The notes beneath the pieces were generated by a model. That model was not told where the DNA came from and made no database searches. It saw nothing but the letters and a program-made list of their open reading frames with translations. Shown piece by piece: positions 2,046 through 63,853 of a stretch of DNA of 64,000 bases. Made by a program: the position numbers and the translations under genes. The stretch is from Malus domestica (lineage: Eukaryota; Streptophyta; Magnoliopsida; Rosales; Rosaceae). How positions within the stretch are numbered: the stretch's first letter is position 1; every line of letters starts with the position of its first letter. Location: assembly GCF_042453785.1 (NCBI RefSeq), contig NC_091672.1:8574501-8638500 (forward strand), given 5' to 3'.

Positions 2046-2305
2046 CTTGGATTTTCCAAGTCTCCAACCAAGAAGTTTTCCTCACTCGGGAAATTAAGGG
2101 AACACTACCCCAACCTACATGCTCCACTCAGAAAGCTTCAACATACAAGCTTCAACAAAAGAAAATTCAAAGAACTTAGCGAAGAAGGCTTTGGTGTATT
2201 TAACACAATACGTTGAAATGAAGGAAAGCTTATTTATTGATATCCCCGATAAGCTACAAATATGTACATATACATGAGTCAAAATAAACACACAAGAGGG
2301 AGCCT

Positions 2306-2980: not shown

Positions 2981-3119
2981 TTTCAAAGGTGTTGAAGAGA
3001 GAAGAGGTCGGACAAATCAAGATCTTAGAAGTGCAAGAATGAAGCTTCTACTGGTGGAGATTCAAGTGTGCTTTGGAACTTAATGCCAGCCTCTATAAAA
3101 ATCTGCACTCGACGGAGCT

Positions 3120-6510: not shown

Positions 6511-7096
6511 AAAAGCGACCGTTTTCGTTACCTAGGATCTATCTTGCAAGAGAACGGAGAATTAGATGGAGATCTCAACCATAGAATACGAGCTGGATGG
6601 AAAGAGTGCATCCGGCGTGTTGTGTGACCGTCGTAGGCCACTGAAGCTCAAGGAAAAATTTTATAGGACGGCAATAAGGCCAGCGATGTTGTATGGCAGA
6701 GAATGTTGGGTGGTGAAGCATCAACACGTACACAAAATGGGTGTAGCGGAGATGAGGATGCTTCGTGGGATGTGTGGGCACACGAGAAAGGATAAGATTG
6801 GGAATGAGGATATCCGAGGTAAAGTAGGAGTAGCCGAAATTGTAGGAAAGATGAGAGAAAATCGGCTCTGGTGTTTTGGACATGTGCAAAGAAGGTCGAC
6901 TGACGCTCCGGTTTGAAGATGTGACTACGGGACAGAGGTTCAGGGCCGAAGGGGTAGAGGAAGACCTAGGAAAACTTTGGAAGAGACTCTAAGAAAAGAC
7001 TTAGAGTACTTGGATCTAACGGAGGGCATGACACAAAACCGAGCGCAATGGCGTTCTAGGATTCATATAGCCGACCCCACTTAGTGGGAAAAGGCT

Positions 7097-7127
<31 letters not shown>

Positions 7128-7128
7128 C
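6511..7128 (+). pseudogene. 5'-truncated, frameshifted LINE 3' end with (TTG)n tail
   Basis: From 6511 the sequence closely matches the first LINE from 1463 onward (same AGCGACCGTTTTCGTTACC start). It carries a small deletion near 6600, a frameshift and an in-frame stop near 6914-6916, so it cannot encode protein. Its 3' end continues past the ORF stop into GGGAAAAGGC and a (TTG)n tail at about 7097-7127. 5' truncation and a simple-repeat tail are what target-primed reverse transcription leaves. Confidence 0.85.
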
Positions 7129-12310: not shown

Positions 12311-12816
12311 TTTTTAAAAAACAAAACACCGCCCTAATTTGGTGCTTTATTCTTTGCTTATGCATTAGGTTTCTGGTTATTCATTTCAAAGCCAAAGTTC
12401 AGGTTCGTCATTCCATTCACACCGGATTAAATGCCAAACCAATACTTACCTCACGTTAGTATAAAGAACGTTCCATTATATTAACTAATTAACCTTTACA
12501 ATTTTATATTTTATTTTCTGGTGTCACTATATACACACCTAGAATATATATTATATTCGCAGCTTTAGCTATCCATCATATACCAAAATTTTCCCAACCC
12601 AATCAAGGGAGCGGATCCGGATCGGATAGCTAAAACCCCATTATTTCTGACCCGACCCGTACATGCTCAACCGGGTCTCCTTAGCTACCTACCAAGCTAG
12701 CTACCTTCTCATGCTACCTGCAAATAAAAACAATAAATCATAATTAATATGAAAATGAAATTTAAGTGAATTTAAGCAGCTATTAGAATCTTGAATTATG
12801 ATCGTACTAATATTAT

Positions 12817-12972
12817 AAGGAAAACTAATGAAAATGGCTTGAAAACTTTGAGTTTTAATGATAAGGACAAAATAAAGGGTAAAGTGAATAGTACCAGGAT
12901 TGACTTTTTAGTGTAAAAATGTGGTTTTTCGTTAAAGTGAACAGTACCAGGTGCTTTTCGTTAAAGTTCCCA
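12817..12972. mobile_element. Dispersed MITE-like repeat, copy 1
   Basis: It opens with AAGGAAAACTAATGAAAATG and contains GATAAGGACAAAATAAAGGG and GATTGACTTTTTA, and a repeated TTTTTCGTTAAA. The same blocks in the same order occur at 48716-48860, and a partial inverted copy lies at 29596-29660. Confidence 0.7.
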
Positions 12973-22239: not shown

Positions 22240-25200
22240 TTACCGATCGATTCCCTCAATTTTGTCTTCAACTTCTTGGTACAACTCCTTCAACTTCTCA
22301 ATGTTCTCCTCTGCGGTGTCCCAGTAACCGCGTCCGTTGGCCTCGAGGAACGTCTGTACCAGCTTCCTGAAGGAGTTCGGATTCGTCTTCATGAGCCTCT
22401 CCAACATCTCCTTGTCTTGAATGAAAGTTGTGTTGGCCTCTTCGTACACCCAGTTGTCAACTTGGCCAGAAGTTGCACTCCACCCAACCGTGTTAGTCAG
22501 CCTTTTCTCAATTTCCCGAACACCCTCGTATCCACTTGACAACATTCCTTCGTACCACTTCGGGTTCAACAACTTCGTCCTTGCATCAAGACGTACGGTC
22601 TCAGACAGTGTGCGAACCTGCAATGCAAGACAAGCTTGTTAACTGGACACAGGAGATTCTGCAGTATAAGCAAAAATATAGTACACCGGCGTATTGATTC
22701 TCACCTGGGCATTGGCTGTGGTGGTGTCAGCAATGTAAGCACTGGGTTTCTTTCCATCTTTCCTTAGGCTTTGCACCAGATTGGTCGGATCCGAGTCAAA
22801 GTAGTGACTCACATCAGTGAGTGAGATCTCCGACGAGTCAAGGTTTTGGAATGTTGCCTCAGCTGTGCTCAGAGCCATCTCAAAAACTTTCCTGTTCTCA
22901 GCCATGCCTACACCGGGGGCATCAGAATCAAAAGCAAACGACTTCCGACTTAGATACATGTCTTGCAGCTGCTTCTCATCGTTCCATGAGGAGTTTTCCA
23001 CAGCAAGGTTTATGTTGGAGGAATATGATCCCGAGGCATTGGAGAAGATTCGGGTCGCAGCTTCACGAACCCCGATCCCTAGGGTTTCTGCTTGCTCCAG
23101 TGCGTGCTTCCTGATGAAGTTTTGCTCCACTGGCTCGTCTAGTTCAGCTACCATCTTCACTGCCCGGTCAAGCAAATTCATCTGCAGACAATAAAATTTC
23201 GAGAAATCGTAACTATTTTATACTATTGTGAGTGCCACATTATGTTTCTAACGTGTATCACAAGACAATACCTGATTGATGAAGAGGTCTCTGAAAACAC
23301 CTGAGCAGTTGACAACGACATCAATCCTCGGTCTTCCAAGCTCCTCAAGAGGTACTATCTCCACCCGGTTGACCCGTCCAAAAGCATCTGCAACTGGTAA
23401 TACACCCACCATCCACAAAACCTGAGCCAAGGATTCACCGTAGGTCTTGATATTGTCTGTACCCCACAAAACAAGTGCTACGGTCTCAGGATACTTTCCC
23501 CCGTTATCGATCTTCTGCCTCTCTATCAGCCTCTCCACCACAATTTTTGCACTCTGCATTGCTGCTGTTGTGGGAATAGATTGTGGATCAAGTGCATGAA
23601 TATTCTTTCCCGTTGGCAACACTTTCGGGTTTCTTATCGGGTCACCACCGGGCCCTGGCTCTACATATTTACCCTCCAATGCTTGTTTCAAACTCCCTAT
23701 CTCATTGTCAGCCACAATTAGCTTCAAGCATTCTGCCAAGAACACGAACAATGTTCTGAGCTTCTCCCTGTCAGCCCTGTAAAATTTTGTGTTTGACAAG
23801 TACTGCACCCATGGTTCGTTTATACCGAACCCAAGGATTGAGCTCAGTTTATCAGCTACGTCAACTACTTGGCCCTTGCTATTTGTCGTACGCTCCACAA
23901 ATGCATAAATTGCTCCCCGTGATGTGTCAGTTATTTGCCGAAGAAGCTCTACATCCTTCAATACCCCTTTATCGCTGCTTCTGTAAATATCCTCTATGTC
24001 TCTTCCGGCTGTCTCTGCTAATATAGATGGGAGGGAAGAAATCCCTTCTTCTGGACGGTCCAGTGCGGCAATGTTAACCAGAGTTGCAACTGCTTCCATT
24101 GCTGTGGGAGGCTCACCAATGACGTGAAGCCCGCAAGGCAACAGGCGGGACTCAATCTCCATGATTTTGGAATACACCTTTCCGACCACAAGATCTCGTT
24201 CTTTTGCTGAGATTTCCACTCCTTCTTCGGGTAGGTCTACGTCCTTGTCGAGATTGCACTGCTTGGCTGTGCTGATTATTGAGCTAACAATCTGTGACCC
24301 GCGGCCTGTGTCTTTCAAGGATTGATAGGAGGAGATGAGCTCACTCAACTGCTTAAGACCTTTGTAAAGTCCAGCATTTTCTGCAGGAGGAGTCAGATAG
24401 CTGATAGTGTTGGCATAGCTACGACGTTTAGCTATGGTAGCTTCAGATGGGTTGTTAGCAGCATAGTAATAAACATTGGGGATGTTCCCAATCAGACTGT
24501 CCGGGAAACAGGCGTCACTCATTCCCACCTGTTTTCCAGGCATGAATTCGAGTGAACCGTGAGTACCGAAATGTAGAACAGCATCAGCTTGGAATATCTT
24601 TTCAACAAATGAATAGTATGCTGCAAAGCCGTGATGTGGGCTAGCAGATTTGGAGAACAGCAGCCTCATCGGATCACCCTCATAGCCAAATGTGGGCTGA
24701 ACACCAATGAAGACATTTCCGTACTGTTTCCCATATACCAAGAGATTCTCTCCATCAGAGTTGAGGTTACCGGGAGGTTTTCCCCAGTTTTCCTCCAATG
24801 CAGTGGCATATGGAGTTAGGCTTTGGTATTCACGGACCCCCATCTTGTATGCGACATTCAGATTTGGGCTGCTGAATTGAGCCTCTTTGTCGTGAATTAC
24901 ATCCTCAATCAAAGCCTCTGAAGTCTCTGGAAGGTTCTCAACATTGTAACCATCTCTTTTGAGTTCTTGCAGAACCGAGAAGATTGAGGCAAAAACATTG
25001 AGGTAGGCAGCTGTTCCAACATTTCCTTTGTCTGGAGGGAAACTGAACACCGTGATAGCTACCTTCTTCTCTGCCTGCATCAGTGTACAAAGTTTAGTCA
25101 GTGAATAATCACAGATTGAAGACATCATGCCTACGAAATACATTTTACTCATGAACAGCAAGAAGATGACGATATTTTAGTATACCATTACACCAGCCAA

Positions 25201-37159: not shown

Positions 37160-37336
37160 CTGTGCAGTGGACGGGTCAAATAAATGGGTTAGGTTTGGAT
37201 TAAGTATACCCGTTTGAAGTTCGGTTACGGGTTTACATAACCCGTACCCGCCACGACCCGCTACTTTTGTTGTTTTTAGTGTTTCAATGATGATTTTGGT
37301 GTAAATTACATTTTTGCATCTTTAAAGTTTATAATA

Positions 37337-38476
37337 GGGTAAATTATATTTTACCTCATCAAGTTTGCGGTCGATTTTAATTTCTTACAATATCTTTAAA
37401 ACATTTCAATTTCATACATTTACTTATCATTTTATTTCAATTTCATACATCCATTAGAAAATCTGTTAAGTAAAGCGTTAAGTGATGACATGGCAAATAT
37501 GGGACCCACATTTATGCTGATGTGGCTGCCAAATATGTGCCACGTGATAAAAATAATAATTTTTATGCATTTAAAATTAATAATATTTACCCTATTAAAA
37601 AAAACAAACAAACCCATAAACCTAAAACCCCCGACCCACCTCCATCTTCTCCACTCTCTTCACCTCCCCTCCCATCCAAAAACTCACCCCATCCCACCCC
37701 ACCCCACCTCCCCCACAACCCCACACCCCACCCCCCACCCTCACCTCCCCCACAACCCCCCACCCCACCCCTTATCGTGCACACCCCTCACCTGGTGCTC
37801 CAGAATCGGCGATTTCTCCTCCATTGCGAACGCCCTGCACGCCATGGATAGATCTGGCCAGCTCAACGCCTGGTGCGTCATGCTCAATGCCATTTTCTTT
37901 GTAGCCAAACAGAAATTAAGCCCCAAAGGTGAGAAAAAAAAAATTGAATTCAAAAGTTCAAATTTTTTACAAAAAGTTTATGAATTTATCACCTCTACCT
38001 TTTCCTTATGGAGATTCAGATTCTCTTTCCATTCAGTGAGCTTTTCTTAATTTTGAATTTTCATATCGTTGTTTTTGGGTGGGGTGGGGGAGGTGGACGT
38101 GGAGGTGGGGGTGGGGTGGGATGGGGTGTGTTTTTGGATGGGATGGGAGGTGAAGAGAGTGGAGGAGATGGAGGTGGGTCGGGGGTTTTGGGTTTGTTTG
38201 TTTGTTTGTTATTATTTTTTTTAAGGGTAAATATTATTATATTTTAAATGCATAAAAAATATTATTTTTGCCACATGACACATATTTGGCAACCACATCA
38301 GCATAAATGTGGATCTCATATTTGTCATGTCATCACTTAATGGTTTACTTAACAGATTTTCTAATGGATGTATGAAATTAAAATAAAATAATAAGTAAAT
38401 GTATGAAATTGAAATGTTTTAATGATGTTATAAAGAATTGAAATCGACCACAAAAGGGGTAAAATGTAATTTATCC
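37337..38476. mobile_element. MULE-like element with about 400-bp terminal inverted repeats
   Basis: The left arm starts GGGTAAATTATATTTTACC (37337) and the right arm, read on the minus strand, starts GGATAAATTACATTTTACC (from 38476). The arms pair for roughly 400 bp, through ATGACATGGCAAATATG, a run of AAACAAACAAACCC and a C-rich segment. Flanks TTTATAATA (37328-37336) and TTTACAATA (38477-38485) form a 9-bp target-site duplication with one mismatch. Long arms and a 9-bp duplication fit Mutator-like elements. No transposase is encoded. The 260-bp core (about 37790-38050) is unlike the arms and has a GC-rich start that could be captured host sequence. Confidence 0.85.
38060..38200 (+). repeat. 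G-rich tract with quadruplex-forming pattern in the right MULE arm
   Basis: Many GGGG/GGGTGGG blocks lie close together (about 38078-38128); the left arm carries the complementary C-rich tract at about 37680-37770. ORFs here are Gly- or Pro-rich artefacts. Confidence 0.8.
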
Positions 38477-38963
38477 TTTACAATATGTTACAATTTGGCC
38501 CAATTCTTTCAGTAAGTTACAAATTGTTAAATGATTGCCCCTTCATGCCCACCTACCAAGTTAATTGTTATTTATTCATGTTACACTATGAGCTTTTGTA
38601 TTTTTTGCTTACATCTCTTTCTATATCTAGATTATTAATCTTTACAATTAAGGAAGAAAGGGTTTAGGGTTTTTTTTCAGTTAAACAATAGATTTTGTTA
38701 GATTAGATGTTATATTAGCCACCGATAGGATTTGAACCCACGTCGTCATGTAAGGACTCAACACATTTCCACTATTATGGTAAAGGGCCACTTGTAGCGA
38801 AAAGATTTAGATTAAGTTTAATAAAACTCTTAAGCTATCCTGTGCTTCAGTAATTGAAACAACTAAAAATCGTAAGATCATATGACAATACCGAAAAAAG
38901 AGCAACAATTGACGTGTAAACAAAAGCAATTTACTACTTGACCATGATACTGGTGGCCATTAA
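38477..38963. other. Intergenic DNA with a possible SINE remnant
   Basis: At about 38715-38800 the minus strand reads GGGTTCAAATCC (B box) with a weak A box about 40 bp before it, consistent with a decayed tRNA-derived SINE. Nothing else recognised. Confidence 0.4.
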
Positions 38964-44642: not shown

Positions 44643-47600
44643 ATGGCGTGCAGTGCTTCAGGTTGCGAATCAAATTGCTACAAAACCCAACAAGAAGAAG
44701 ATGAAGATGTCAAAGACAACAACAATTACAAATCAATTTCTACAAACACTAGAAACAACAACAGCAACAGTAGTTTGTGCCTCAAGTGCAAGGCCAATCA
44801 ACCCATCTCTTCCAACACCGACGGCGGCGACGAAGCGCGCTTCTGCGCCGATTGCTTCCGCGGCAATCTCTTCGGGAAGTTCAGGTTCGCTGTCACCTCC
44901 AACGCCATGATTTCTCCTACTGACAATGTCCTCGTTGCCTTCTCCGGTGGCCCTTCTTCCAGGTCCTTCTCTTTCTCTATCTGGATCAATCTTAAACGTT
45001 CATCGATTCTGTTTTAATGGTAATTTTGCTTCTTGTAGTAAGAAATTTTGTGCGTAAGATGATTTAAAAAAAAAAAATGAATCTTTTAAGAATTTGAAAG
45101 ATGTATTTTTCGTTACGGATTTGTTGAAATTTGGAAAATGTTATTTTGGTTCCAGGGTTGCTTTGCAGTTTGTACATGAGATGCATAATAAAGCACAGAA
45201 GAATTTCGATGCCAGTAGGGATAGATCGTTGCCAGTTTTTGGGGTTGGAGTTGCATTTGTTGATGAGACTTCTGTTTATTCTGTTCCGTCTGGTGAAGTA
45301 GAAAACGCAATTGAAGATATTAGATTGATCGTGGAAGACCTAGCTCCACCAACAAAAGAACTGCATGTTGTACCAATTGAAAGTGTATACTCTTCAGATT
45401 CTGGTGATGGAAGGGATAGATTAAATCAGTTGTTAGATGCTGTTCCTGATGCTACTGGGAAAGAAGATCTTTTACTTCACATGCGGATGTTGGCATTGCA
45501 AAAGGTTGCGAATTTTATATAAATTTCAGTTGAAAAATACGGTGAAGGGCATCATAGTGAATTCTTGCTGAATGTTTTGTTTTGTTTTGTTTTGAAGGTT
45601 GCCTCTGAAAAGGGATACAACAGACTTGTGCTTGGATCATGCATATCGAGGATTGCTTGCCATGTTATTACAGCCACTGTCAAGGTTTGCTTTTTATGCC
45701 TTAAGTTGGATGCGCATTTCCTCCGAAAATAAAATTTCCTACTGTCACTGGTCAATGCATTGTCCTTCAATACATTTTATTTGAGAATTAGTTCTGTCCC
45801 CGTCAAAAATAACAATAACTGGTAATCCTGTTCATAGATCAATAAAATACACTGGTCAATGTAGTGCTTCATGCAATTGCTTTGCATATATTTTGATACG
45901 TTGAGAATATTTTTTCTGTTCTGGTGTTGAAGCTATAATTTTTAGTGTTCCAAATATATATATATATATATATACAAGTTTTTAATTTTATTTAATTGGA
46001 AAAATATAGTTAGTTTTAATACAGTTTTTAATTAAGCTGAAATGGTAATAAATTTTATTGCATTAAACAAAAAAAAAATTACAGATGAAGTGGACAAGAT
46101 GGCCACAACTAACCTAGCAAGACATCGTCTCAGAGACTCGGATAATAGATTGTGTTGTGCGACATTTAGTAAATTTATTCCTGTATGCGATCCCCTTTTT
46201 TTTTTCATGGAAATGGTGTTTATAGTTTAAACTTTTGTAATTCCATTTGACTCAGCTTTTTGTCCAACTAAAGTAGGAAGGTTGATGATTTTTGGAATGA
46301 AGGACCGTTTATATCAATGCTATATATTAGTTTTTGTTGAAGTGTTATGCCAAAACTTTGAAGGTATTTTGATCTTACTTATATTTTCTTTCAACAGGGC
46401 CAAGGATATTCTTTACCAGCTGATATACAATATGTTGATGCAAGGTGGGAGATCCCAGTGTTACTTCCTCTTCGTGATTGTCTTGCACGAGAGCTGACCA
46501 TGCTTTGCCGCCTTGATGGGTTTGTAATTTATGCAACCGTATAACTTATGTTAGAATTTTGTTATCCTTACTGAATTATGTATCTGATCTCTCACCTTGG
46601 CAGGGCAGTCTAAAAACTGTGGAGTTGATGAGAAGTCCTAGTACTGGAATAAACGGCTTGGTCTCATCATTCGTGACACTTTTGCAGGTAGAAATGGCAC
46701 TGTTTTTCTCATCATTTATGTGTGATCAAAGATATTTATTAAAGAATGGTTTTGGCATGAGATTTTAGAAAGAACAACTTCACTGGTAGAGTTTAGCATG
46801 CACTTGAAGAGCAATTATTGTTTTTGTTCAACAATTTTGGGTGGGTACACAATTAAGCAAGGGTTAATCATTGTTTAGCAAGAAAGATTTGTAAACGGTA
46901 TCTCCAGTACCCCTGGAAAAGTTGATGAGGTTCGTTTTAAAGGCTAAATAGTGAAACATTTCTTTTTTCAGTTACTAAAGTGACACTTTTCAAAACATGT
47001 TTTTTGTAGAAATATCTTACTGCAAGACATACATACTCTTGTTCCACAAGTAATCGTCTTTGGTTCTGAACTAGCTATTATACCTTGATGTTGGGTTCAA
47101 ACATATCTTAATGGGCAAGTCTGATTGACTTTTGTTATCCAGGAAGAAAATCCTTCTCGAGAGTGCACAATTGTGAGAACTGCTGGAAAGCTTATCCCAT
47201 TTCATTTTAACGGAATTCAAGAGATAAATGACTCTAAGGTTTCTTTGGAAACTCGAAGGCGTCTGAAGAGATATAACCTTAAACCTAATGAATCTTTTTC
47301 CTCAGAGTCATTCTGCTTTATCTGCAATAGCCCACTCAGCCGATCTGACTTGCTAAGTTTGAAGAATTTTGAGGAGCACAAGACAAGTTATGTCTGCTGT
47401 TTAAGCTGCCAGTTTCAGATACTTCCTGAAGACCCCTCATCAATAAATCAATTTTTTACTCTTTTTCCTCAGCAGCTGGCTGCTCGAGCAAAGCATGACA
47501 ATCTTGACCATTACAGTGTCCTCAGGTGAGAATAGTATACATATTAATCATTTGATGCTTTGCTGATGGCTTGAATCAATGACGATACTGGGTTTAATGC

Positions 47601-47995
47601 ACATGCATGTAATGGGGTTAAGTTCGAAAAGAAGAAAACTACTACTAAATGAACTTAAAATTAATTATTTCTTTGTCATCTTATACCACAAATCTTCAAA
47701 CAGAAGTCTGAAGATTATCAGAAAACTTATGGGGTTGGCATTCTCGAGAGGGGGTAATCTAGACACCGTCTAGCACTGAATGGCTGCATATTTCTGTGCG
47801 GCGATCATGTACAAAACATTTAATCAGCTTCAGTTGGTCTTTTATGGTGGCATGAGTTACCTTATACTGTTGTGTAGTTGAAGAGAAATACACCGAAATG
47901 AAAAGGCTACAGTCATTTTTAATTCAGCCATTGCGTTTTCTTTCAGGGAACAAATACAAGATTGCTTGCTCTCAGAAGGTGAAGATGAGACTTGA
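44643..47995 (+). CDS. CTU2: Cytoplasmic tRNA 2-thiolation protein 2 (462 aa)
   Basis: Seven exons: 44643-44962, 45156-45504, 45598-45684, 46398-46519, 46609-46687, 47143-47525, 47947-47995; 1389 nt, phases consistent, all GT-AG. CTU2 (yeast Ncs2) pairs with CTU1 to thiolate wobble uridine-34 of cytosolic tRNAs for Lys, Gln and Glu, using sulfur from URM1. Visible features: zinc-type pairs C46/C49 (CLKC) and C68/C71 (CADC), a PP-loop-derived stretch LVAFSGGPSSR (97-107), VFGVGVAFVDETSVYS, GYNRLVLGSCISRIACHVIT, and a C-terminal zinc site CFIC...CCLSC in exon 6. The exon 5 acceptor is the second AG (GGCAG|TC) of two close ones, fixed by frame. The last two exons are duplicated intact at 52063-52944. 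The match to Arabidopsis CTU2 is strong along the whole length. Confidence 0.95.
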
Positions 47996-48715
47996 ACCGA
48001 CTCGCCCATGCCTGGGATCTATTTTTTTATAAAGGTAGTGAAAGATTTGGTTGGTCAGATTGTTTCTAAAGGATAGTGGACTTGTGATGCGAACAACAAT
48101 CACACAACTGCAGGTATCAATTGACGGTGTTTGGTTGACATCCGAGGCTGTTCTAACTGTCCAACAGGCCTATAATTTATGTTTGTCTTGATGGCGTGCA
48201 TCATAGGTTTGAAATTCGAGCTTGGTTTAGTTGAGATTGTATCTGGTTTGCGAATTATTCAGTTGTTTTTTTATTGATAACTAAAAAATGGGACTGGCAT
48301 AGGCCCGTTTCATCAACATTGTACGAGAAACACTCAATTCTCTGATATTTTGGCATTAGAAGATTGACCAAATTTTGTGCATTCAACAGATTTTCCAAAT
48401 TTATTTATACAATTTGAGATTTGAGACCCAAAAAGAATAAGTAGATAAATCTACTAGTTTAGTACGATAATTGGTACGAATTTTTGGTATGGTAACCATG
48501 CCAAACCTAGCCCTAACTACGGCGGTGGTGCCATGGGAGATAAGTGGAAAGAGAATTCATTTGGCATCTTTTTTTTTTTTCTTCTCTAGCCATTAGATTA
48601 AATAAATCAAATGGTAAAAACAGAAAGCATAAGGAGAATGACAGAATCATTTTCCAAGCGGAAAACAAGTCCCTATTTGTGTTGGTATGAACAAAGCTTT
48701 GTTTTTAAGGAAAAT

Positions 48716-48860
48716 TAATGAAAAATGTTTGAAAATTTTGAGTTTTAACGATAAGGACAAAATAAAGGGTAAAATAAATAATATCAGGATTGACTTTTTA
48801 ATGTAAAAATATGATTTTTCGTTAAAATAAACAAAACCAAGAGTTTTTCGTTAAACTGCA
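48716..48860. mobile_element. Dispersed MITE-like repeat, copy in duplication unit 1
   Basis: Same block order as 12817-12972: AAGGAAAATTAATGAAAAAT, GATAAGGACAAAATAAAGGG, GATTGACTTTTTAATG, TTTTTCGTTAAA. Absent at the corresponding place in unit 2. Confidence 0.7.
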
Positions 48861-49676
48861 TTTGTTTTTATTGTCTTTTTTTCTTTAGTTGACTTGATTC
48901 TCCACACCCATGGTTGAAAAAATTGTTACGTTGGTCATCCCACACCTATGGCTGGAAAAATTATTAGGTTGGGATAATTAGACAACGTGACTGATTGATC
49001 GATTGACATAAGACATATTAGGTGGTGTCAGAGGGGTTGGGTGGGGCCAAAATACTGGGAGGTAAGATTGGGGTGGGTGTTATGTTTCTTAAGCCGAATG
49101 GCTACGTGATTTGATAAAACAATATTGGTACAAAACTCGGTAGGATTTTTAGTTAAAATGGTATGTGAAATTGATATAATTTTTTATTTTAATTTTTGAT
49201 ATTGAAAATCGATAGAATTGATCTCTAAATTTATCTACCGTAAATCAATTTTATATTTTTATTAAAATTTGTCAATATCCTCGATAAGTGGAGAAATTGG
49301 TTTGATAAAAATATTTGGAATTGGATCCGCTTCAGACCTTGTGTCCGAAGTCTCAAGATTAATCCATCTAGGCTGCTGATTGGTGTGTAAAAGAAATTAA
49401 AGTTGTTAGTTTGTATATGGTAGTATAGAAGAATAAGTTAATAGAGACCGTTGAATTTAATTTGTGCGGTTTAAATTAGTCGATCCTTAATCTACAGACA
49501 GAGGAACGAATCTAATTCCAAAATACTTTTACCCACTAGGCTTTCTTTATAGTTGTTGACTTTATAAAAGCATATTAGAGTTAGATCTACCTTCAGCTAA
49601 GAACCGGAATCATTACTGAGAGTGAAGACTAGAAAAATCTGAATTACCTTCAGCTCACCTCATCGAGCAGAAGAAG

Positions 49677-50063
49677 ATGGCTGAGCTTGGATTTCCGTTA
49701 GCAGCCATACTCATTGAAAAGCCTCGGCTCCGTTGCTTCAGAGGAGATTTGCTTGGGGTTAAAGCGGATTTGCAAAAGCTTGGGTGCACCATGTCCGCCA
49801 TCAGAGACTGCTCTTTTATGACGAAGAGAAGCAAGCCCATAATAAGGAGCTACGCAGTTGGGTACGACAACTTCAAGATGTGCTTAGATGTGCTTATGAT
49901 TTGTTGGAGGAGTTAGAGTGCGAAGATTTACAAAGGCAATGTGGTTCGTGATAGTGGCGCAACTAGAAAGGTAAGCCGTTTCTTTTCCCGTTCTAATTCG
50001 GTTGCAATCCGATTGTGTGGGTCATGGAATCAAGCAGATAAGGGAGAGATTATGTGAGCTTAT
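49677..50063 (+). pseudogene. CC-NLR resistance-gene fragment (coiled-coil start only)
   Basis: It begins ATG GCT GAG, giving MAELGFPLAAILIEKPRLRC, then KADLQKLGCTMSAIRDCSF, followed in other frames by text for LRSWVRQLQDVL and, near 49960-50060, for RKVSRFFSR and IRERLCEL. This is the N-terminal coiled coil (Rx_N type) of a CNL immune receptor, broken by frameshifts and cut off before the nucleotide-binding domain, just before an A-rich stretch. Confidence 0.8.
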
Positions 50064-50089
50064 AAAAAATAAAAATAAAAATAAAGAAA

Positions 50090-50975
50090 AGAAGAAAAAG
50101 ATAAGAACTTTGCTGATTTCTGTGTGTTCCAATGATGCCCATGACTGAAGAAACTGAGATATTTCGTGTTAGTCGCCACAATCTGTTCCTACCTTGTTGC
50201 CCTCTATCAACAAATTTGGTAACTCGCTTCATTTGATACGATCTGCATTCCACACAGCAAATACAAGCATAAATTTCTTATCATTTAATGCATCTCGTAG
50301 TTGTTCTTGCATTTGATCCAGATACAACCCTTCAGTGATCTTTGTACCCAATGCAGAGCAAAGGATCTCTTTTGCCAATCTAGTAGTATCAAAAGTCCAC
50401 TGACATATGCTGCCACATCCTTAACTCAAAATTCCTTACGACTCTCTCATCGTTGTACCCAAATTGGCAAGTGTGGTGTTCTCTAAACCTTCGAATCCCA
50501 CTGTACGAATAACATACACATTCTCATTATCCCTACCTTGATGATCATCGCTTGGTACCATTTGAAGGTCAACTGTATTTTTCTGTTTCTCATCACCAAG
50601 ATGACGGTGATGATGAACAGTGCAAAGATCAGCAAAGCTCACATAATCTCTCGATTTCATGACCTACTCTCCAGCGAAATGCAACTAGATTAGAATGGGA
50701 AAAGAAACGGCGTACCTTTCTAATTGCGCCACTACCACGAACCGTTTGCCTTTGTAAAGCTTCGCACTACCAACAAATCCTCAGCATTAAGAACCACGTC
50801 TTGAAGTTGTCGTAGCCAACTGCGAAGCTCCTTGTTATGTGCTTGCTTCTCTTCAGCATCCAAGAGAACGTCTTTGATGGTGGACATGGTGCGCGCAAGC
50901 TTCGCAAAGCTACTTCAGTTGCTGTGGAGTCCATAAAGATTTCATGATCTTGTTGCCTTAGCGCCAATCTCCCTT
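50090..50975 (-). pseudogene. Inverted CC-NB-ARC pseudogene
   Basis: Reading right to left, 50975-50760 encodes coiled-coil text in shifting frames. At 50660-50436 the frame includes FADLCTVHHH and then VGFEGLENTTLANLG, a decayed P-loop where GGLGKTTLAKL is expected. Around 50380-50290 the translation AKEILCSALGTKITEGLYLD is the segment after the P-loop. At 50280-50090 fragments like AVWNADRIK (kinase-2 region) and RNISVSSVMGIIGTH (RNBS-B region) follow. The order is right for a CNL, but it has frameshifts and a mutated P-loop. Confidence 0.75.
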
Positions 50976-52062
50976 CAGAACAAAATATTGGAAAATGGAT
51001 TTAACTCGAATGAGAGATGACTTGGGGAAAACCGAGGTAAGTTGTTCTCTAAAATACTGAAAGTATGTTTAATGAGATTGATGACAGGAAAATCACCAAC
51101 ATAGGAAGTGTGACTGATAAATCATAAGCCTACTCACTCGTCTTACTATTCTTTATGTCCCTTAGATGAAGCCATATATTCCTCTTCCAAAACCTCTGCT
51201 TCTTTATTTTAGGATTGCCATGACTTGGAATAAAGAATATAAATCCGCGGAACTCCCATTGTTCTGTTTTTATCTGATCAAGTGAGTAACTCCAATCTAA
51301 TTTTCTCTGCAGTGAACTCAGATAAGATTGATATGAAAATGAATCCATATGTGACTCAGAAAGTTTGTTCGAGCATATTTTTGAGAGAATCATTGTCTGA
51401 TATGCCGGTGGTCGATTGTTATAAGTTCCTGTTTATAAGGAAAGATAATAATTATTCTGTTATAAATTCCGTTATGCTCTAGTGCAGTCACTAAGAATTA
51501 TTATCTCCTCTCTTACTCTGCCTTTTTAAGTAGCTAAACAGTTTTGTGCTGCAGGGCTGGTATTGAACTTGTAAAGCTATCTGTATGCACATAAAAAAAT
51601 TCACTGACAGAATCTGCAGTATTTGTATATGTACTATATGCATCTTGCATGAGGCGCTGCCACTTAATAGTTTCGTGGTTCAACCAACCAAGATGCAGGA
51701 AAATCAACAAGTGATTTTGCTGACAGTTTACATCGGACCAGCAAACTCACACATGAACAAACTCAGAACAATTAAGCAAGGGTTGATCATTGTTAAGTAA
51801 GAAAGATTTGTAAAAGGTATCTCTAATTCCCTTGGAAAAGTTGATAAGGTTGGTTTTAAAGACTAAATCGTGAAACTTTTCTTTTTTTCGGTTTCAAAAT
51901 AATGACACTTTTCAAAACATGTGTTTTTTTAGAAATATCTTACTGCAAGACATACTTTTATTCCACAAGTGATCGTCTTTGGTTCTGAACTAGGTGTTAT
52001 ACTGTGATGTTTAGTTCAAACATATCTTAATAGTCAAGTCTGATTGACTTTTTGTTATCCAG

Positions 52063-52944
52063 GAAGAAAATCCTTCTCAAGAGTGCACAATTGTGAGAAC
52101 AGCCGGAAAGCTTATCCCATTTCATTTTAACCGAGTTCAAGAGATCAATGACTCTAATGTTCCTCTGGAAACTCGAAGGCGTCTTAAGAGATATAACCTT
52201 AAACCTAATGAATCTTTTTCCTCAGAATCATTCTGCTGTATCTGCAATAGCCCACTCAGCCGATCTGACTTGTTAAGTTTGAAGAATTTTGAGGACCACA
52301 AAACAAGTTCTGTCTGCTGTTTGAGCTGCCGGCTTCAGATACTTCCTGAAGAGACCCCATCAGTAAACCAATTTTTTATGCTTTTACCTCAGCAACTGGT
52401 TGCTCGAGCAAAGCATGACAATCTTGACCATTACAGTGTCCTCAGGTGAGAATAGTATACATATTTAATCATGTATTATGCTTTGCTCATTGCTTGAATC
52501 AATTTTCATTATTCCTTAGAAGCTTGAAGATAACTTGTTATGGCACTGGGTGTACTGCACATCCATGTAACGGGTTAAGTTCGAAAAGAAGAAAACTGTA
52601 CTACTAAATGAACTTAAAATTAATTATTTCTTTGTCATTTTATACCGCAAAACTTCAAACAGAAATTTGAAGATTATTAGAAAGTTTGCATTCTCGCGAG
52701 GGGGTAATCTAGACAGAGTCTACTGCTGAATGGTTCCGTATTTCTGTGCTGCGATCATGTACAAAACATTTGATCGGCTTCTGTTGGTCTTAAATGGTGG
52801 CATGAGCTGCCTATATCGTTGTGTAGCTGAAGAGAGATGAAATCAAAGCGAGAAGTCTACAGTCATTTTAATTCAGCCATTATGTTTTCTTTCAGGGAAC
52901 AAATACAAGATTGCTTGCTCTCAGAAGGTGAAGATGAAACTTGA
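52063..52944 (+). pseudogene. Duplicated CTU2 exons 6 and 7 (partial gene copy, frame intact)
   Basis: Exon-6 copy 52063-52445 (383 nt) and exon-7 copy 52896-52944 (49 nt), the same lengths as in CTU2, with acceptor AG, donor GT and stop codon kept. The translation differs at a modest number of residues (e.g. CCIC for CFIC, both keeping the Cys-x-x-Cys). No promoter or exons 1-5 accompany it, so it is listed as a partial copy; a read-through transcript could still splice into it. Confidence 0.85.
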
Positions 52945-53446
52945 GTCGACTCGGCCATGCCTGGGAACTTTTCTTCTATAAAAGTGGTGAAAGCTTTGGT
53001 TGGTCAGATTGTTTCTAAAGGATAGTGGACTTCTGATGCAGGTATCAATTGAAGTTGTGTGGTTGACATCCAAGGCTGTTCTAACTGTCCAACAAGGCCT
53101 ATACTCGATATTTATCTTGATGGCGTGTATCATAGGCTTGAAATTCAAGCTTGGTTCAGGTTTGAATTCGAGCTTGGTTCAATGAGATTGTATCGGGATT
53201 GCGAATTATTCAGTTGTTTTTATTGGTAACAAAAATGAGGCTGGCATTAGGCCTGTTTCATCTAACTGTACAAGAAACACTCAATACTCTGATTTTTTGG
53301 CATCTTATGCATTGCAAGAAGATTGAGTAACTTGTGTGCATTCAACAGATTTTCTAAAATTATTTGTACGATTTGAGATTTGGGACCCAAAAACAAAATA
53401 TAAATCTACTAGGTTGTTACGATAAATGGTTGGGGATTTTGAAATG

Positions 53447-53646
53447 GGAATTGGATCCTCTCTGAGGCAAAGCCTTGGATCCTCCTGACCCACTAACACG
53501 AGCTGTTGGATTTTGATCTAACTGTTACAATTATTTTAACTTTTAGAGGGACCCCCCCTATTTGTAGCTGTTGGATCAAAATCCAACGGCTTGTGTTATT
53601 GGGTCAGGAGGATCCCGATGATTTGCCTCGGAGATGATCCAATTCC
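53447..53646. mobile_element. 200-bp MITE with 9-bp target duplication, inserted in unit 2
   Basis: The ends GGAATTGGATCCTCTC and, read on the minus strand, GGAATTGGATCATCTC continue as about 90-bp arms (GATCCTCCTGACCCA and TGTTGGATTTTGATC in both). Flanks TTTGAAATG (53438-53446) and TTTGATATG (53647-53655) differ at one base. Unit 1 has the empty site TTTGGTATG at 48483-48491. Confidence 0.88.
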
Positions 53647-53973
53647 TTTGATATGGTAACTTGTGTGACTTCATTCTCGAACATCACACCCATGGTAGGA
53701 TAAATTCGTAGGTTGGTCATCCCACACTCATGGTAGGAGAAATTTTTAGGCTGGGATGACCAAACCACGTGATTGAACAATATAAGACACATCGGGTGGT
53801 GTCAGATGGGGTGCGTGGGGTCAAAATACTAGGAGGTGAGAGTAGGGGAGGGTGTTTTGTGTCTTAAGCCGGACGGCTACTTGATTTGATAGTTGTTGAC
53901 TTTTTTAAAAGCATATTAAGAGTTTGATCATATCTTCAGCTAAGGATCAGATTCATTAGAAGACTAGAAGAAG

Positions 53974-54657
53974 ATGGCTGAGTTTGCATTTCCATTGGCA
54001 GCCAAACTCATTGTAAAGCTCGGCTCCATTGATGACGAAGAGGAGCAAGTACGTATAAGAAGCTATGCAGTTGGCTACGGCAACTTGAAGATGTGCTAAG
54101 GATTTGTTGGAGGAGTTTGAGTGCGAAGCTTTACGAATGGTTCGTTAGTGGTCCAACTAGAAAGGTACGCTGTTTCTTTTCCCGTTCTTATCCATTTGCA
54201 TTCCAATTGAGAGCGGGTCATGAAATCAAGGAGACAAGGGAGAGATTATGTGAGCTTAAAGATGATAGCGACTTTATTTATCTTCGGATTGTTCATCATT
54301 TTGGTCATCATGTAAGGGAGCATACGACGCTCTCCTTTGTCCGCGCTTGGGAGGCTATTGGTAGAGACATGGAGAAAAATAAAATTATTGATCTTGTAAT
54401 GCACCAGGGTGGTGACCAAGGTGGGAGTGAGAATGTCTCTGTTAATTCTATGGGACTTGGAGAGGCCTAGGAAAGACTACCAAGTTGGTGTACAGTGATC
54501 AGAAGGTCCTTCGGAATTTCGACTTGACGTGGCAGGATGTATCACTGGAATTTGATGTTACTGAATTGGCAAAAGATATTCTTAGTTGTGCACTAGGTAG
54601 AGAGATTAGTGAAGGGTTATCTCTGGATCAATTGCAAGAAAAACTACCCGACGCTTA
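53974..54657 (+). pseudogene. CC-NB-ARC resistance-gene fragment in unit 2
   Basis: It starts ATG GCT GAG (MAEFAFPLAAKLIVKLGSID), then passes through frameshifts to a 125-residue open stretch with IKETRERLCELKDDSDFIYL, IGRDMEKNKIIDLVMHQGGD and a P-loop region ending in MGLGEA and a stop (54470), where GKTTLA should follow. Downstream text (54480-54650) encodes FDVTELAKDILSCALGREIS in another frame. The order CC then NB-ARC is clear; the protein is not. Confidence 0.8.
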
Positions 54658-54663
54658 ACAATA

Positions 54664-54716
54664 TCGACCGCCAGCATATTTCAGAGACAATCATTGTTCG
54701 ATACGCTGGCGGTCGA
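54664..54716. other. Perfect 12-bp inverted repeat (hairpin)
   Basis: TCGACCGCCAGC (54664-54675) and GCTGGCGGTCGA (54705-54716) can form a 12-bp stem with a 29-bp loop. Only the right half has a clear counterpart in unit 1, near 51404-51418, there with changes. Confidence 0.6.
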
Positions 54717-55024
54717 CTGTTATAAAATCCCTTGTGAACTAGAGCAGTCACTAAGAAGTATTCTTACTCTGACCTTCTAAGTGGCTATACAGTTTGTACT
54801 GCAGTGCTGGTATTGAACTAGCATGCACATCAAAAGCTTTAGCAACAGAAGCTGCAGTATTTGTATACGCACCAGATGCATCATTCATGAGGCACTGCCA
54901 CTTTATAGTTCCGTGGTTCAACCAAACAAGACCAAACAAGACGTAGGAAAATCAACAAGTAATCTGCTGACAGTTTACATGGGACCAGAAAGCTAACACA
55001 TGAACAAACTCAGAACAAGATAGA

Positions 55025-55345: not shown

Positions 55346-57702
55346 TTAAGGAATCTGGGAAAAGAACTCCTCCAGCTGATTTTCTGTTACGACCACACCA
55401 AGCTTTTCAGTAAAAACTGCATTGGTCACGTCAACTCCTGTTCCTGTCACCGCATCTGTAGCATGGATCTGAAAGTAACCATCCAGGTTGTGTACAGTCC
55501 CATCTGCACAAGTTTACAAAACCCCAGGAAAAAATAAATCCAATTCTGTTGTGCATAACTCATCACCTGATGCAGGACAATATGAAGGGATGTAGAAATA
55601 GAAGAAATCTGGGCTCACTCTGGCCTTTGGCATCACACCAAAGGGAATCACTCCAACAAAGAAACTAGAAAAATTCTGGCATCACAACGGCCTTCAGCTT
55701 CACACCGAAGGTGCCTTGGAATCACTACATGGTTGCTGTGCTTCACACACAGGTAGGAAACCCAGAACTTTTTTTATTAACAATCTTATTTTTAAAAAGC
55801 TTACAAAGTAGCCCCTTTTATAGCCCCCTTTTATAGGAATTCTAAAGACTAATGTATGACACCTAATACATTACAACTAATTTGTAGACTACACTGCATT
55901 TATTACAAAGGAAAGTAAAAAGACTCTGATATATTGAATTTTCACTTGGACACTCCATCACCACCTCACTTGGAAAATAGCTTTTAGAAGTTCAATGCCA
56001 GAACAAAATAATTAAGCTACTAAGAAGGGGTAAGTAAAAGAGGAGATTATAGTTCTTAGTTGACTGCTCTAGCTCATTAGGATTTATATAAAATTATTCT
56101 CCTTCTCTATAAACAGAGGATATAACAATCGACCATAAGAAGCTTGATTTCAGCTACTTTCTAGATATCAAACAAAATTCTTAACTCACGGCTCAATTTT
56201 CAATCTTATCTGACATTACTACAAGAGCAAAATTAGATGGATTTCCCCTCTTGACCGCATAACGAAACAAAGGGAGTTCCAAGAAATGACAATCCTAAAA
56301 TCAAGAATCAGATACTTAGTTCTTAAGACTCAGATAATGGTTCTCAAGTGACTGATGTAGCTCATTAGGGAATATATATAAAATTAGTCTCTTTCATTCC
56401 AAACAGAACTTATAACAATCACCACAAGAAGCATGATTTTGGCATGAACCTGAACTCGGGCAAGTTATGCACCTTCCATCTACTTATTACTAGTAGTAAT
56501 CAATAGTGGCTATTGAATCACATAAGTTTCAATCTTATCTGACATTACTACAAAAACAAATTAGATTGGAGTTGCTTGATCGAAAGAAAAAGAAAAAAAA
56601 GGGAGTTCCACACATTTTTTAATTTTTCCAAGAAGTGACAATTCAAAATGATTCCACCATCATCAGACCACATAAAAGCATCAGAGGATTTTAGCACTTA
56701 CCCTGCGCAACAATAGGCTGATAGAGAGGAGGTTGACGAAGCCAATTTCCATTAGAATCTTTCATGTGTCTTCTATCAGAGGCAAAGAAACGAAGGAATA
56801 TTGGGGCATGCACAATCCGGAAACACCTGCATCACGGTACCCGCAAAGATATCAATATAAATAGAGGGTAAGAAACTTATCAGATATATGGCATGTTATG
56901 TTGCAAGATCACAAATTTTTACCAGATCAATAGTCCCAATAACCTCACAACGTAACATCCCAAGTATCATTAGAACATTTCCCTATAAATGCAAAACGCT
57001 AAGGTGATGAAGTACCTTCGCAATTCAGAAAAGGTCTGAAACGAGGGGCAGAACGTTTCCAAGACATAGGTTGCTAAAGGACAAGGAAATGCAAGACTCG
57101 AATCCAAATCCCACACTAAATGTGTTGCGGGTGTGTCACCACTGCCTTTTTTCTGCACGCAAATGACATGATAATCCCACAGAACAACCCCATCCGCTCG
57201 ATTGCTGGCCTTCTGGCGCCACAACGGGATCTGCACCATTTTATTTACACCAGAACAAACTCTAAGTTCATTAAAAACAAGACAAATGAAACATAAATTT
57301 TAAGTCAAACAGCCAGTTGGGTAACATGGGAACAGAAAATACATGCCTGTTTCTTGTCATTGGAAATGAAAACAACGAAAAGATCAGAACCCTGTGCATC
57401 TGCGATGCCCTTTTTGCACAGCTCCTTGCAAAGCAAGTACACATTCTCCTCACTAGAGACATAAAAGGGTGATTAATTTGATTAGCAATTGAGCAATAGC
57501 ACAACACAAAAGCCAAAAACCAAAAACACAAAACGCGGGGTTAGGACAGTTCGCGGGGGCAGTGTTCCCACCACTTGCACCCAAGTTCGAATAAAAAAAG
57601 GCCTAGTTGATTGGCTTTACTGACGTACCAGTAAAATGGGGTGTGATGGAACCGAGAGATGTCGCAGGAGCTCTCGCTTACTTCCAACTTCGACGTCGTC
57701 AT
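55346..57702 (-). CDS. NTAQ1: Protein N-terminal glutamine amidohydrolase (225 aa)
   Basis: Five exons on the minus strand: 57702-57629, 57452-57347, 57230-57016, 56826-56702, 55503-55346; 678 nt in phase. The enzyme deamidates N-terminal Gln to Glu, making proteins substrates for arginylation in the Arg/N-degron pathway. The catalytic Cys-His-Asp set is visible: C25 in FYCEENVY, H81 in the family signature WDYHV (79-82), and D101 in [26 protein letters not shown] follows. C25 is split by intron 1 (TG|T). Intron 2 has a GC donor (CAG|GCATGT), required to keep KKQ|IPLW in frame. Intron 4 (56701-55504) is about 1.2 kb. Length agrees with plant NTAQ1. It shares a 201-bp head-to-head promoter with the DTW gene. 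Confidence 0.95.
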
Positions 57703-60050: not shown

Positions 60051-61718
60051 GTAACAAATTGTTTTGCGTCCTTTTTGTGGGGGAAGGTCCATAAACTTTG
60101 TTATTGTGGCAATGTGTTGTGAGCACAACCTTCTAATTTTATGCAGTTCGTAAATTTCTACATTGAGACCTCCCACGTGGAGGAAGAAATGGATGTGGAC
60201 CAATGATTCAAAGAAGACTGATCCAAATGTGCATATAGGCACCACATGGCACGTGATATGTTCACTTTTGTGCACTCCCACTTAAAAGCTCTCGCACTAT
60301 TGTGTAAAAGAACTGCTTTTTCTGATGTTCTTCCGATCAGTTGGTTTAGCGGCTTTTCGTTTCAAATTTGTATTCCACCTTGTAGAGATATAATCACGAT
60401 ATATTTGTGATGAAATTGATATTAAGTTGTGGTTTGTTGGGCTTGTTATAAAAATCTATATACCAAGTTTCACTTTCTTTTTCTTCCCCCTACTTCCACT
60501 ATTTTTCTATCCCTCGTTGTCCCATTGGCTTAAATGATATATAATTCATTTGGCCTTTTAGTTATTGAGTTTCGATTAAGCTAATATCGTGTATTCTGCA
60601 AATCAACATTAAAAAGACGCTTAAAAGACAAAATGGAGTAAGCATTTCGGCTAATTTATTCTGTGTATTTTCAAATTTCGCTAATTTGGTTACTTCGCTT
60701 TTATCTATTCATGTAATTCGGGTTGATTTGTGATTAGTAATACTTTATTCATGATATGTATTTGTAATGCTATTTTTTTAATGAATAAAATATTATACTT
60801 TTCTTCAACAAAAAAAAAAATTTTGAAAAGAGCAAATTAAGAGAAAATCTTTTCAAATGGTTTTCTCTTTAAAGCTTATCATTAAATAAATACACAGTTA
60901 GATTTAAAACATATTTAAGGAATAACCCATTGTTAAGGCCCAAAAATGTCACATGCAAACCCAATCAAGTCTTGAAGCCCAACTGTTATACAATACATGC
61001 AAAGGTGCGGAATCGAGAAGGAGTCATGCTCGTAATCATGCCATGTTACGTTAATCAAACCACATATTTGTGTAAATCACACCACGCTTGTGCAAACTCA
61101 TGCATATTTGTCACGCCAAGTTTTATCATGGTAATCAGTATTCATGCTAAGATAAACCCAAGTCACATGTCCGGGACTTGCCAAGTGAATTGTGGTGTGG
61201 ATGGTTACGAGAGTTTATCAGGCCTATGTGGAGTCAAAATTATGAAAGACTTTGGGTTGCTTGGGGCCCAAAGATCCAAGCCCATACTCTTCGAAGTCGA
61301 CATAGGTAAGTCTGAGAAAGCAAACCTAGTTTCTTCCTTTCCCTAGCAAGCTAACCAACTTAGTTAGGAAGGAACAAGCCCTGAGCCTTAGAGTCACGTG
61401 AAAGCCCATTAAGACATGCATTTAATGAAGAGAGAAGCAGACTTTTCCTTCCTAACTCACCCAGAAGACCATCGCATGAAAGCCATGAGATGCGACACCA
61501 AAAGTAACATTTGTGGAAAACTGACACGAGAAAGCAGCGCCTCGGAAAGGAGGCGCATCACAATCTTCACATGAGTGGCTAAGTTACCACATGAAACCTG
61601 TAGCTTTCATGCTTAAATTAAACCAATACATGTCTATAGAACCCGAGTGTTCTACGATGTTTGTCTATGGACTACCATATGACTAACTACGTTTTGTCAT
61701 ACTTTCCGTTTTAGGGAT

Positions 61719-62267
61719 ATGTCGAACTTAAACAAGTTCGATTTTGCCACTTTGGAAGTCTCTAGAAGAAATTACTTGAAGTGGGTTCAAAATGTGAAGC
61801 TCCATCTTATTGCAAAAGGTATTAGGGCCACCATGAAGGTACCTATCGATGACAAACCCGTTGATGAAGCTCATAAAGCTACTGCAATGATTTTGGTTCG
61901 AAGACACATCCATGATGCAATGCAGACAGAGTACCTCGCTAAGGAAGACCTATGCACCCTCTGGCTTGCTTTGGCTGACCGTTTCGATCACCAAAAAGAC
62001 ATTTACTTGCCTGAAGCAAAACACGACTGGCAGCATTTACGCTTCCAAGACTTTAAGTCCGTGAATGAATTCAACTTTGAAGTTTGTAGAATTCGATCAC
62101 TGCTTAAGTTTTGTAAAATGGACTTAACAGAAGTTGATTTACTAGAGAAGACCTATTCGACCTTCCATGCCACCAATATTGTCCTGCAGCAACAATGTAT
62201 GGTACATAAGTTCACCAAATGTTCAAATTTGATCTTTGTTTTACTTCTCGCTGAAAAACAGAACTAG
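61719..62267 (+). pseudogene. Copia gag (182 aa open part, then broken)
   Basis: ATG at 61719 gives MSNLNKFDFATLEVSRRNYL, then TLWLALADRFDHQKDIYLPE, HDWQHLRFQDFKSVNEFNFE and LLAEKQN, the UBN2/copia gag family. The stop at 62265 is premature; a zinc-knuckle-like CYCCGS near 62525 and PKAPNFKNKGKA just before it continue the gag in another frame. Confidence 0.85.
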
Positions 62268-62908
62268 ATTTCAAGCTTGACCAATTAGCTCGAACGCTAC
62301 GCTTGAAGCGCACACGACTAATTCTAGCAACCACAAACGACGAAAGAATTGTTATGGCCGTGGAAATAGGCAGCAAGCCCAACCACGGGCCTAAGGTCAA
62401 CAGAGCCAATGGCCATCCAAGGGAGGAAATTTGACCCAGAAGCACCAACCCCTTGCCCCTAAAGCCCCAAACTTCAAGAACAAGGGAAAAGCGACCATTC
62501 AATCGGCTTCCACTGAAATGGACATGTGCTACTGCTGTGGATCAAAGGTCATTAGTCACGTGTATGCAGAGCTACCCCTGAGGCTATTGCCCAGTACCAT
62601 TCCCGTCGTGAGTCTAACTTTGCCCATGTGGAACATCCTGAAGATATTACTACATCTATGGAGATATCATATTTTCAGGAGGCATCAACTCTTATGGACG
62701 AATAAGTTTTATTCTTCTAGACTTGTTTTTATGGTGTTTTTACCCCTAGTGGCTGAACCCATTAGGAGTGGCCGGACCCCCCCTAATTTTTAGGTTTCTG
62801 GTTTAATTTTTGGACAATTTTTCTAAGTATTTGGAATACTTTTTTTGGTTTTGGTTTTTATTTTTTTATATTTTTTTATGGATATTATTTCTCGAATTGA
62901 TTAATTGA

Positions 62909-63313
62909 ATGAATGGAATTATATTTATGCATGTGACCAATTCAATCAATTTATTTCTAGGTATGTTTAGTGGGGAAGTTAGTTGTTTGGCTGATAATGC
63001 TACTACGCACACCATATTGCGCAAGCAACACTATTTTACTAACTTCGTGCCTAAGAAAACACCTCTGACAACTTTCTCAGGCACATCTAACTTGATTGAA
63101 GGATACAGAAAGGCCCATGTCACGTTGTTTAATGGTACTATCTTAACCATTAAAGAGGACTTTTATTCTCCACGTTCTGGAAGAACATTGTTGAGTTGTA
63201 GAGATATTCGAGATAATCAATATCATATTGAAACCACTGAAGAAAATGGTTTTGTATTTCTTTGTATCACTTCTTACGAGTATGGCCAGAAATATATTCA
63301 TAAGAAGTTGTAA
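62909..63313 (+). pseudogene. Copia protease and gag-pre-integrase region, degraded
   Basis: CLADNATTHTILR (from about 62980) is where the aspartic protease motif DSGATTHT stands in intact elements: the DSG has become DNA, so the active site is lost. The following NLIEGYRKAHVTLFNGTILT and LLSCRDIRDNQYHIET belong to the same domain. A stop follows at 63311. Confidence 0.75.
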
Positions 63314-63490
63314 CGTCTTTCAAGTGGGTTGTACGTCACAACCATTCGCGGCATAGAAGCCCAGCATATGGCGGGCCCTATGCTTGAGTTCTAGAGTGCT
63401 TTACTGCTTTGGCATGATTGTATGGGACATCCCGACATGACATGATGTGCCCCTCCCTACATTAGATTCCCGCTATGCAAAGCTTGTTCT

Positions 63491-63853
63491 TTGGGAAAGT
63501 TGAATAATCAACCCTCGATTACAAAGGTTATTCACAACCCTCCTAAGTTTCTTCAGAGGATTCAAAGGGATATTTGTGGACATATCCAACCAATATGTGG
63601 ACCATTTAGATACTTTATGGTGTTGGTTGATACATTAACACGTTGGTCACATGTCTGTTTATTGTCCACACGCAACACTGCATTTGTGAAACTCCTAGCA
63701 AAAATTATTAAGCTAAGGGCTCACCACCCTGATTATCCGATCAAGTTGGTTCGACTGGATAACGCTGGAGAGTTTACGTCACAGACTTTTAATGACTATT
63801 GCATGTCAGTTGGGATTGAAGTAGAATATCCTGTACCCTATGTTTACACCTAA
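63491..63853 (+). pseudogene. Copia integrase core fragment
   Basis: The frame encodes QRDICGHIQPICGPFRYFMV and VDTLTRWSHVCLLSTRN, with LDNAGEFTSQTFNDYCMSVG, the second and third catalytic parts of the rve integrase core, and a stop at 63851. GLTKAFIKCLQL continues after the stop, so the copy is dead. Confidence 0.85.

Follow-up and report, generated by a model that had tools for sequence, protein, structure and literature searches.

Partial tandem gene copies are usually dismissed as debris, and the question raised by the CTU2 locus of apple (Malus domestica) is whether one such copy instead supplies a second ending to the gene beside which it lies. We analyzed a window of 64,000 nucleotides (C12:8574501-8638500) in a genome of 651,096,769 bases on 19 contigs, in which the two terminal exons of CTU2 occur twice, head to tail, together with fragments of coiled-coil nucleotide-binding leucine-rich repeat (CC-NLR) genes. 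The reading that we favor, with a probability of about 0.5, is that a single old head-to-tail copy was under selection for a good part of its existence, and that its exons 6′ and 7′ would serve, or have served, as a distal alternative ending of CTU2. The co-copied, dead NLR provides an internal control, beside which the exons stand undecayed.

An earlier note on this DNA had described two head-to-tail units that start in CTU2 intron 5, run through exons 6 and 7 and meet near 51767/51768. Self-comparison of the window by BLASTN bears this out, with the boundary of the units at that point and an exon numbering that agrees with our gene model. Five collinear same-strand matches, all with expect values (E) ≤4e-33 and far beyond chance, connect 46849-47580 with 51768-52503 (90.3% identity over 740 columns), 47587-48475 with 52545-53430 (81.6% over 929 columns, gaps counted), 48903-49116 with 53685-53891 (79.1%), 49815-50062 with 54029-54258 (80.4%) and 51457-51771 with 54717-55018 (77.8%). 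The sequences proposed as the common start and end of the units, AATTAAGCAAGGGTT (46851 and 51770) and ACTCAGAACA (51761 and 55008), indeed occur only twice each in the window. The end given as 55024 needs correction: the second unit closes at 55018, a position that is ambiguous by the four shared bases. Likewise, the expected diagonal of the self-comparison exists, but it is interrupted rather than continuous, and because each unit holds private sequence their lengths are unequal (Table 1). Both units begin in the 3′ portion of CTU2 intron 5 and continue through exon 6, intron 6 and exon 7 into ~480 bp of 3′ flank; then come a middle stretch of ~210 bp, the 5′ fragment of a CC-NLR and a final piece. 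Unit 1 has in addition an inverted NLR piece with further sequence at ~50100-51456. A genome-wide DNA search with 46100-48480 returned the query itself and one further match, which starts at query base 750, i.e., at the proposed left edge of 46849. With two collinear direct copies, one junction and sharp outer edges, the tandem segmental duplication is real: a block reaching from within CTU2 intron 5 to ~330 bp before the end of the coding part of the convergent NTAQ1-like gene was copied once, head to tail, and took along CTU2 exons 6-7 together with part of a CC-NLR gene located between CTU2 and NTAQ1.

Table 1. Features of the CTU2 duplication (window positions)
Feature	Position	Strand	Basis and remarks
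Unit 1 of tandem duplication	46849..51767	+	self-comparison; 4919 bp
Unit 2 of tandem duplication	51768..55018	+	self-comparison and genome DNA search; ~3250 bp
Junction	51764..51775		breakpoint comparison; ACAA (51768-51771) common to left edge, junction and right edge
CTU2, seven exons, 462 amino acids	44643..47995	+	gene model; Pfam CTU2 on C-terminal part
CTU2 exons 1-5	44643-44962, 45156-45504, 45598-45684, 46398-46519, 46609-46687	+	gene model
CTU2 exon 6 (unit 1)	47143..47525	+	gene model
CTU2 exon 7 (unit 1), to stop codon	47947..47995	+	gene model
CTU2 exon 6′ (unit 2), open, splice borders as exon 6	52063..52445	+	gene model and unit comparison
CTU2 exon 7′ (unit 2), to stop codon	52896..52944	+	gene model and unit comparison; amino acids identical to exon 7
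NLR fragment D1 (Rx_N part), broken	49660..50064	+	Rx_N, E 4.7e-7
NLR fragment I1, inverted, private to unit 1, broken	50100..50930 (about)	-	Rx_N, E 2.2e-12
NLR fragment D2, broken	53966..54660	+	DNA match to C14 NLRs; three pieces scanned without Pfam match
Sequence private to unit 1	48476..48889		self-comparison; 48703-48855 86% identical to 12813-12965 (dispersed repeat)
Insertion private to unit 1	49117..49545		unit and C14 comparison; mostly missing from C14 counterpart too
Palindromic insertion private to unit 2	53447..53646		unit comparison; foldback, resembling a miniature inverted-repeat transposable element by form only

The CTU2 label rests on a Pfam CTU2/NCS2 (PF10288) match of the C-terminal 199 amino acids, which score 29.8 bits against a cut-off of 27.9, the full 462 amino acids remaining below it at 24.1 bits; cloning primers for Arabidopsis CTU2 given in the available part of PMC10863982 encode ends resembling those of the apple protein. 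All seven matches in a protein search of the genome lie inside the window, and that search and two DNA searches, with the best candidates scored, gave no other CTU2 match in the genome, a strong though not absolute negative. A tblastn search of CTU2 against 110 kb of C14, the contig that carries the counterpart of the window, returned one chance-level match (E 6.8). The Pfam family search gave no CTU2 match in this genome and in 14 control genomes alike, and is hence uninformative. No CTU2 relatives were found in viral contigs or among solved structures, and none of 37 pattern matches in bacterial and archaeal genomes was confirmed.

That the second exon pair is intact had escaped the earlier note and is new information. 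Exons 6′ and 7′ have the lengths of exons 6 and 7 (383 and 49 nt) and like acceptor and donor borders, and joined to exons 1-5 they also yield 462 amino acids. The pairs differ at 30 of 432 sites (9, 6 and 15 at codon positions 1, 2 and 3, each of 144), with nonsynonymous and synonymous divergences of dN 0.054 and dS 0.153 (dN/dS 0.35, Fisher P 0.008). The endings differ at 17 of the last 143 residues, and all seven cysteines of exons 6-7 are retained in the second copy, which has one extra. No insertions or deletions (indels) fall within these 432 bp, against 21 in 1154 bp of non-coding sequence (Fisher P 0.002), or 17 without homopolymer events (P 0.006); the NLR control, D1 versus D2, has 13 in 365 aligned bp. 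When copy 2 was simulated as neutral throughout (20,000 runs per setting), it stayed intact in 0.46-0.84% of runs at the non-homopolymer non-coding indel rate and in 0-0.03% at the NLR-piece rate; copies both intact and with ≤17 amino-acid differences made up 0.01-0.4% and 0-0.01%, respectively. As the frame, splice borders and most amino acids were kept, selection most likely protected exons 6′-7′, and would have done so for a good part of the time since the duplication.

A stand-alone protein from unit 2 was considered and rejected, as exon 6′ is preceded by no in-frame ATG; the sole methionine of the 6′-7′ ending is residue 106 of 143. A coding role thus needs splicing from the upstream CTU2 exons, and since a transcript joining exon 6 to 6′ falls out of frame and meets its first stop at codon 458 of the 590 read, it would have to be mutually exclusive splicing from exon 5. 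Both pairs are open and bear splice borders, and their joint use is not productive, as is expected of mutually exclusive alternative terminal exons. Exon 5 would be spliced to either 6-7 or 6′-7′, yielding CTU2 proteins with different C-terminal ends; of the reasons why the exons were preserved, we infer such a distal alternative ending to be the likeliest.

Several points weigh against this reading. The use of 6′-7′ is a prediction from sequence, and would require that a 5.4-kb intron and unit 1's own 3′ end be skipped. The rejection of neutrality leans mostly on the missing indels: amino-acid differences alone reach ≤17 in 0.6-30% of the neutral simulations, and a copy that was neutral over as much as 0.32-0.61 of its age, the value varying with the indel rate, is compatible at the 5% level. 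Because the comparison includes no outgroup CTU2, the 17 changes are not assignable to either copy. The Pfam CTU2 profile barely separates the two endings (24.1 versus 25.3 bits), and altered C-terminal versions score ≤0.7 bit apart on it, an uninformative result. Plain distances overlap as well (0.106-0.193 directly from unit to unit, 0.053-0.241 from window to C14), and because of this overlap of the unit and C12/C14 divergences the relative timing is read from the NLR trees described below.

The points on neutrality also sustain the strongest competitor, to which we assign an appreciable but minority likelihood: the same duplication took place, and 6′-7′ is a promoterless fragment, unused or briefly used, that stayed open by luck. 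Consistent with such a relic, the copy has neither the upstream exons nor a start codon of its own. It sits poorly with the absence of indels next to non-coding and NLR neighbors that have many, given that at most 0.84% of copies neutral throughout came out intact. Gene conversion from unit 1, by which the second exons could have retained a functional appearance although unused, is improbable. It would be in keeping with the single difference among the 49 bases of exons 7 and 7′ and with the longest identical run between the units, 65 bp at 47481-47545, which spans the exon 6 donor; the synonymous divergence of the exons is, however, as high as the non-coding level (0.12-0.15), and hence the exons as a whole have not been recently overwritten. 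Taken for itself, the 65-bp run may reflect gene conversion or a splicing signal.

As to how the copy arose, the earlier note had invoked unequal crossing-over, which needs homologous direct repeats at both edges. The form of the product is right for it, and erosion since the event could hide old or longer repeats. In 400 bp on either side of the three breakpoints, the units' own homology set aside, no direct repeat of the needed type is present; the other matches span only 11-24 bp, the best being a 21-bp inverted one (E 0.002). Lacking such repeats in the flanks, unequal crossing-over is not supported, and we give it a low likelihood. The left edge, the junction and the right edge have the short sequence ACAA in common, as microhomology-type joining calls for, and this favors such joining as the better fit; an overlap of at least four bases is reached by 2.1% of random breakpoint pairs, so the evidence is weak alone. 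The join would have been made at this microhomology, by end joining or replication-based template switching, after the C12 and C14 counterparts split, and would have been followed by decay of the NLR pieces and gain of private insertions in each unit. Judged from the assembled sequence, it is very unlikely that two alleles or counterparts were joined end to end in the assembly, because the three non-coding stretches common to the units differ at 143 of 1154 sites (87.6% identical ungapped; 12.4% mismatch) with 21 indels, both units hold private insertions, the genome searches left no C14 copy of CTU2 to be misjoined, and unit 2 continues without N into NTAQ1, so that the duplication is old and hardly an assembly echo.

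The history of the NLR supplies the order of events behind the proposed distal ending. Among nine pieces from the window, Rx_N is above cut-off in two and NB-ARC in none, and the pieces align to C14 genes; the inverted piece of unit 1 (I1) had gone unmentioned in the earlier note. A genome search with D2 gave at least 22 matches, all counts being lower bounds: 14 on C14 (7.82-8.43 Mb; nine NLR places and five short 5′ pieces), two at C12:25.0 Mb, one short match on C3 and five in the window, itself included. One C14 NLR (C14:7903811-7907694), with an open frame of at least 783 codons, lies with its upstream flank next to an NTAQ1 end, the order of the parts matching that of the window. In trees of 13 sequences (D1, D2, I1, eight of the nine C14 places and the two at C12:25.0 Mb, the short C14:8212940 and C3 pieces being omitted), D1 and D2 are sisters with a support of 97 (985 columns) and 89 (392 columns), the eight C14 NLRs form a clade (90 and 97), and I1 joins D1 and D2 (a weak 58, and 85). 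Summed path lengths in the 392-column tree are ~0.16 between D1 and D2 versus ~0.22 between C12 and C14. From these trees, and from the NLR with its upstream flank beside NTAQ1 on C14, it follows that the NLR predates the C12/C14 split and the tandem duplication postdates it. The earlier idea that the duplication explains the mixture of housekeeping and resistance genes is thus half right: both were copied together, but C14 too has an NLR with this upstream flank next to NTAQ1, and the mixture pre-existed. The inverted NLR pair of unit 1 (49769-50039 and 50646-50908) is 80.1% identical and folds at -497.8 kcal/mol over 1151 nt, a value without shuffle control; it is a possible source of hairpin RNA for silencing.

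The C14 region (C14:7821231-8435384) is an NLR cluster with repeated NTAQ1-end and DTW fragments between the NLRs, and judging from this scatter of fragments the duplication of passengers is a habit of the locus. In the window, three of the four reading-frame pieces of the NTAQ1-like gene match Nt_Gln_amidase (E 7e-9 to 1e-23), its presumed last exon (55349-55513) having no Pfam match by itself, and the gene after it encodes a DTW domain. A large minus-strand gene at 22-27 kb codes for an Mg-chelatase H-type protein and is presumably chlH; its counterpart lies at C14:8340188-8342080 (95% over 1893 bases), and C14 pieces are collinear with the window up to ~33.9 kb. Part of it (24377-25076) matches C9:8625648-8626347 at 98% over 700 bp, compared with 95% for the C14 counterpart, and the C9 sequence is perhaps a recent gene fragment. 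Positions 1-7128 are repeat-rich with internal direct repeats, match C14:8346016-8352137 at 92-97% and look like a recent mobile element. An inverted repeat (37332-37733 and 38077-38480, 87.8%), with relatives of ~73% at C14:7931147-7931429, is a foldback element by form, and 61683-63853 holds broken retroelement polyprotein pieces, with an integrase core above cut-off and Pol_BBD below. The window has no Rfam match at gathering score and no ARAGORN prediction. The Gillenia paper PMC8558331 puts the base number of apple at 17 chromosomes and its sequenced genome at 643.2 Mb, and mentions fusions and fissions that connect Malus Chr12, 04 and 14.

Among known systems, the locus resembles partial (incomplete) tandem gene duplications, in which part of a gene is copied alongside without its promoter and first exons; unlike these, it retains a complete pair of terminal exons, still open while the co-copied DNA decayed. 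Mutually exclusive exons born by tandem exon duplication, such as the Dscam arrays and OGDH exons 4a/4b, are likewise similar exons in tandem, and here joint inclusion shifts the frame. The apple exons differ from them in being terminal, with their own stops, 4.9 kb apart and separated by NLR debris, and in that their use is predicted from sequence. NLR clusters carrying pieces of neighboring genes have a parallel on C14, where related NLRs lie among the repeated NTAQ1 and DTW fragments; on C12, by contrast, the NLR is dead and the passenger is CTU2. In the accessible portions of the open-access literature on Malus tRNA 2-thiolation, plant terminal- and tandem-exon duplication and NLR clusters of homoeologous apple chromosome 14, the locus is not described.

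What is new, then, is how old the duplication is, what became of the NLR and that the second ending is intact. NLR and housekeeping sequence have long been mixed here, and of the two chromosome counterparts one saw the NLR locus expand and the other saw it die. According to the available text of PMC10863982, Arabidopsis CTU2 and ROL5 act together in tRNA thiolation, and plants mutant in CTU2 are hyper-susceptible to a bacterial pathogen; a passage of PMC8325679 credits rice SLG1, the CTU2 homologue, with more thiolated tRNA and with resistance at high temperature. Neither text, in the parts available, mentions the apple locus. Since Arabidopsis CTU2 is needed for both tRNA thiolation and bacterial resistance, a second CTU2 ending in apple would matter for translation control. 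Tentatively, and with less confidence than we place in the distal ending as such, we posit that apple CTU2, the partner subunit in thiolation of the tRNA wobble uridine, has had two selected, mutually exclusive C-terminal endings since the old duplication that trapped NLR pieces between them, and that the resulting isoforms, which would differ around the cysteine-rich C-terminal part, may tune the tRNA thiolation on which immunity depends in Arabidopsis.

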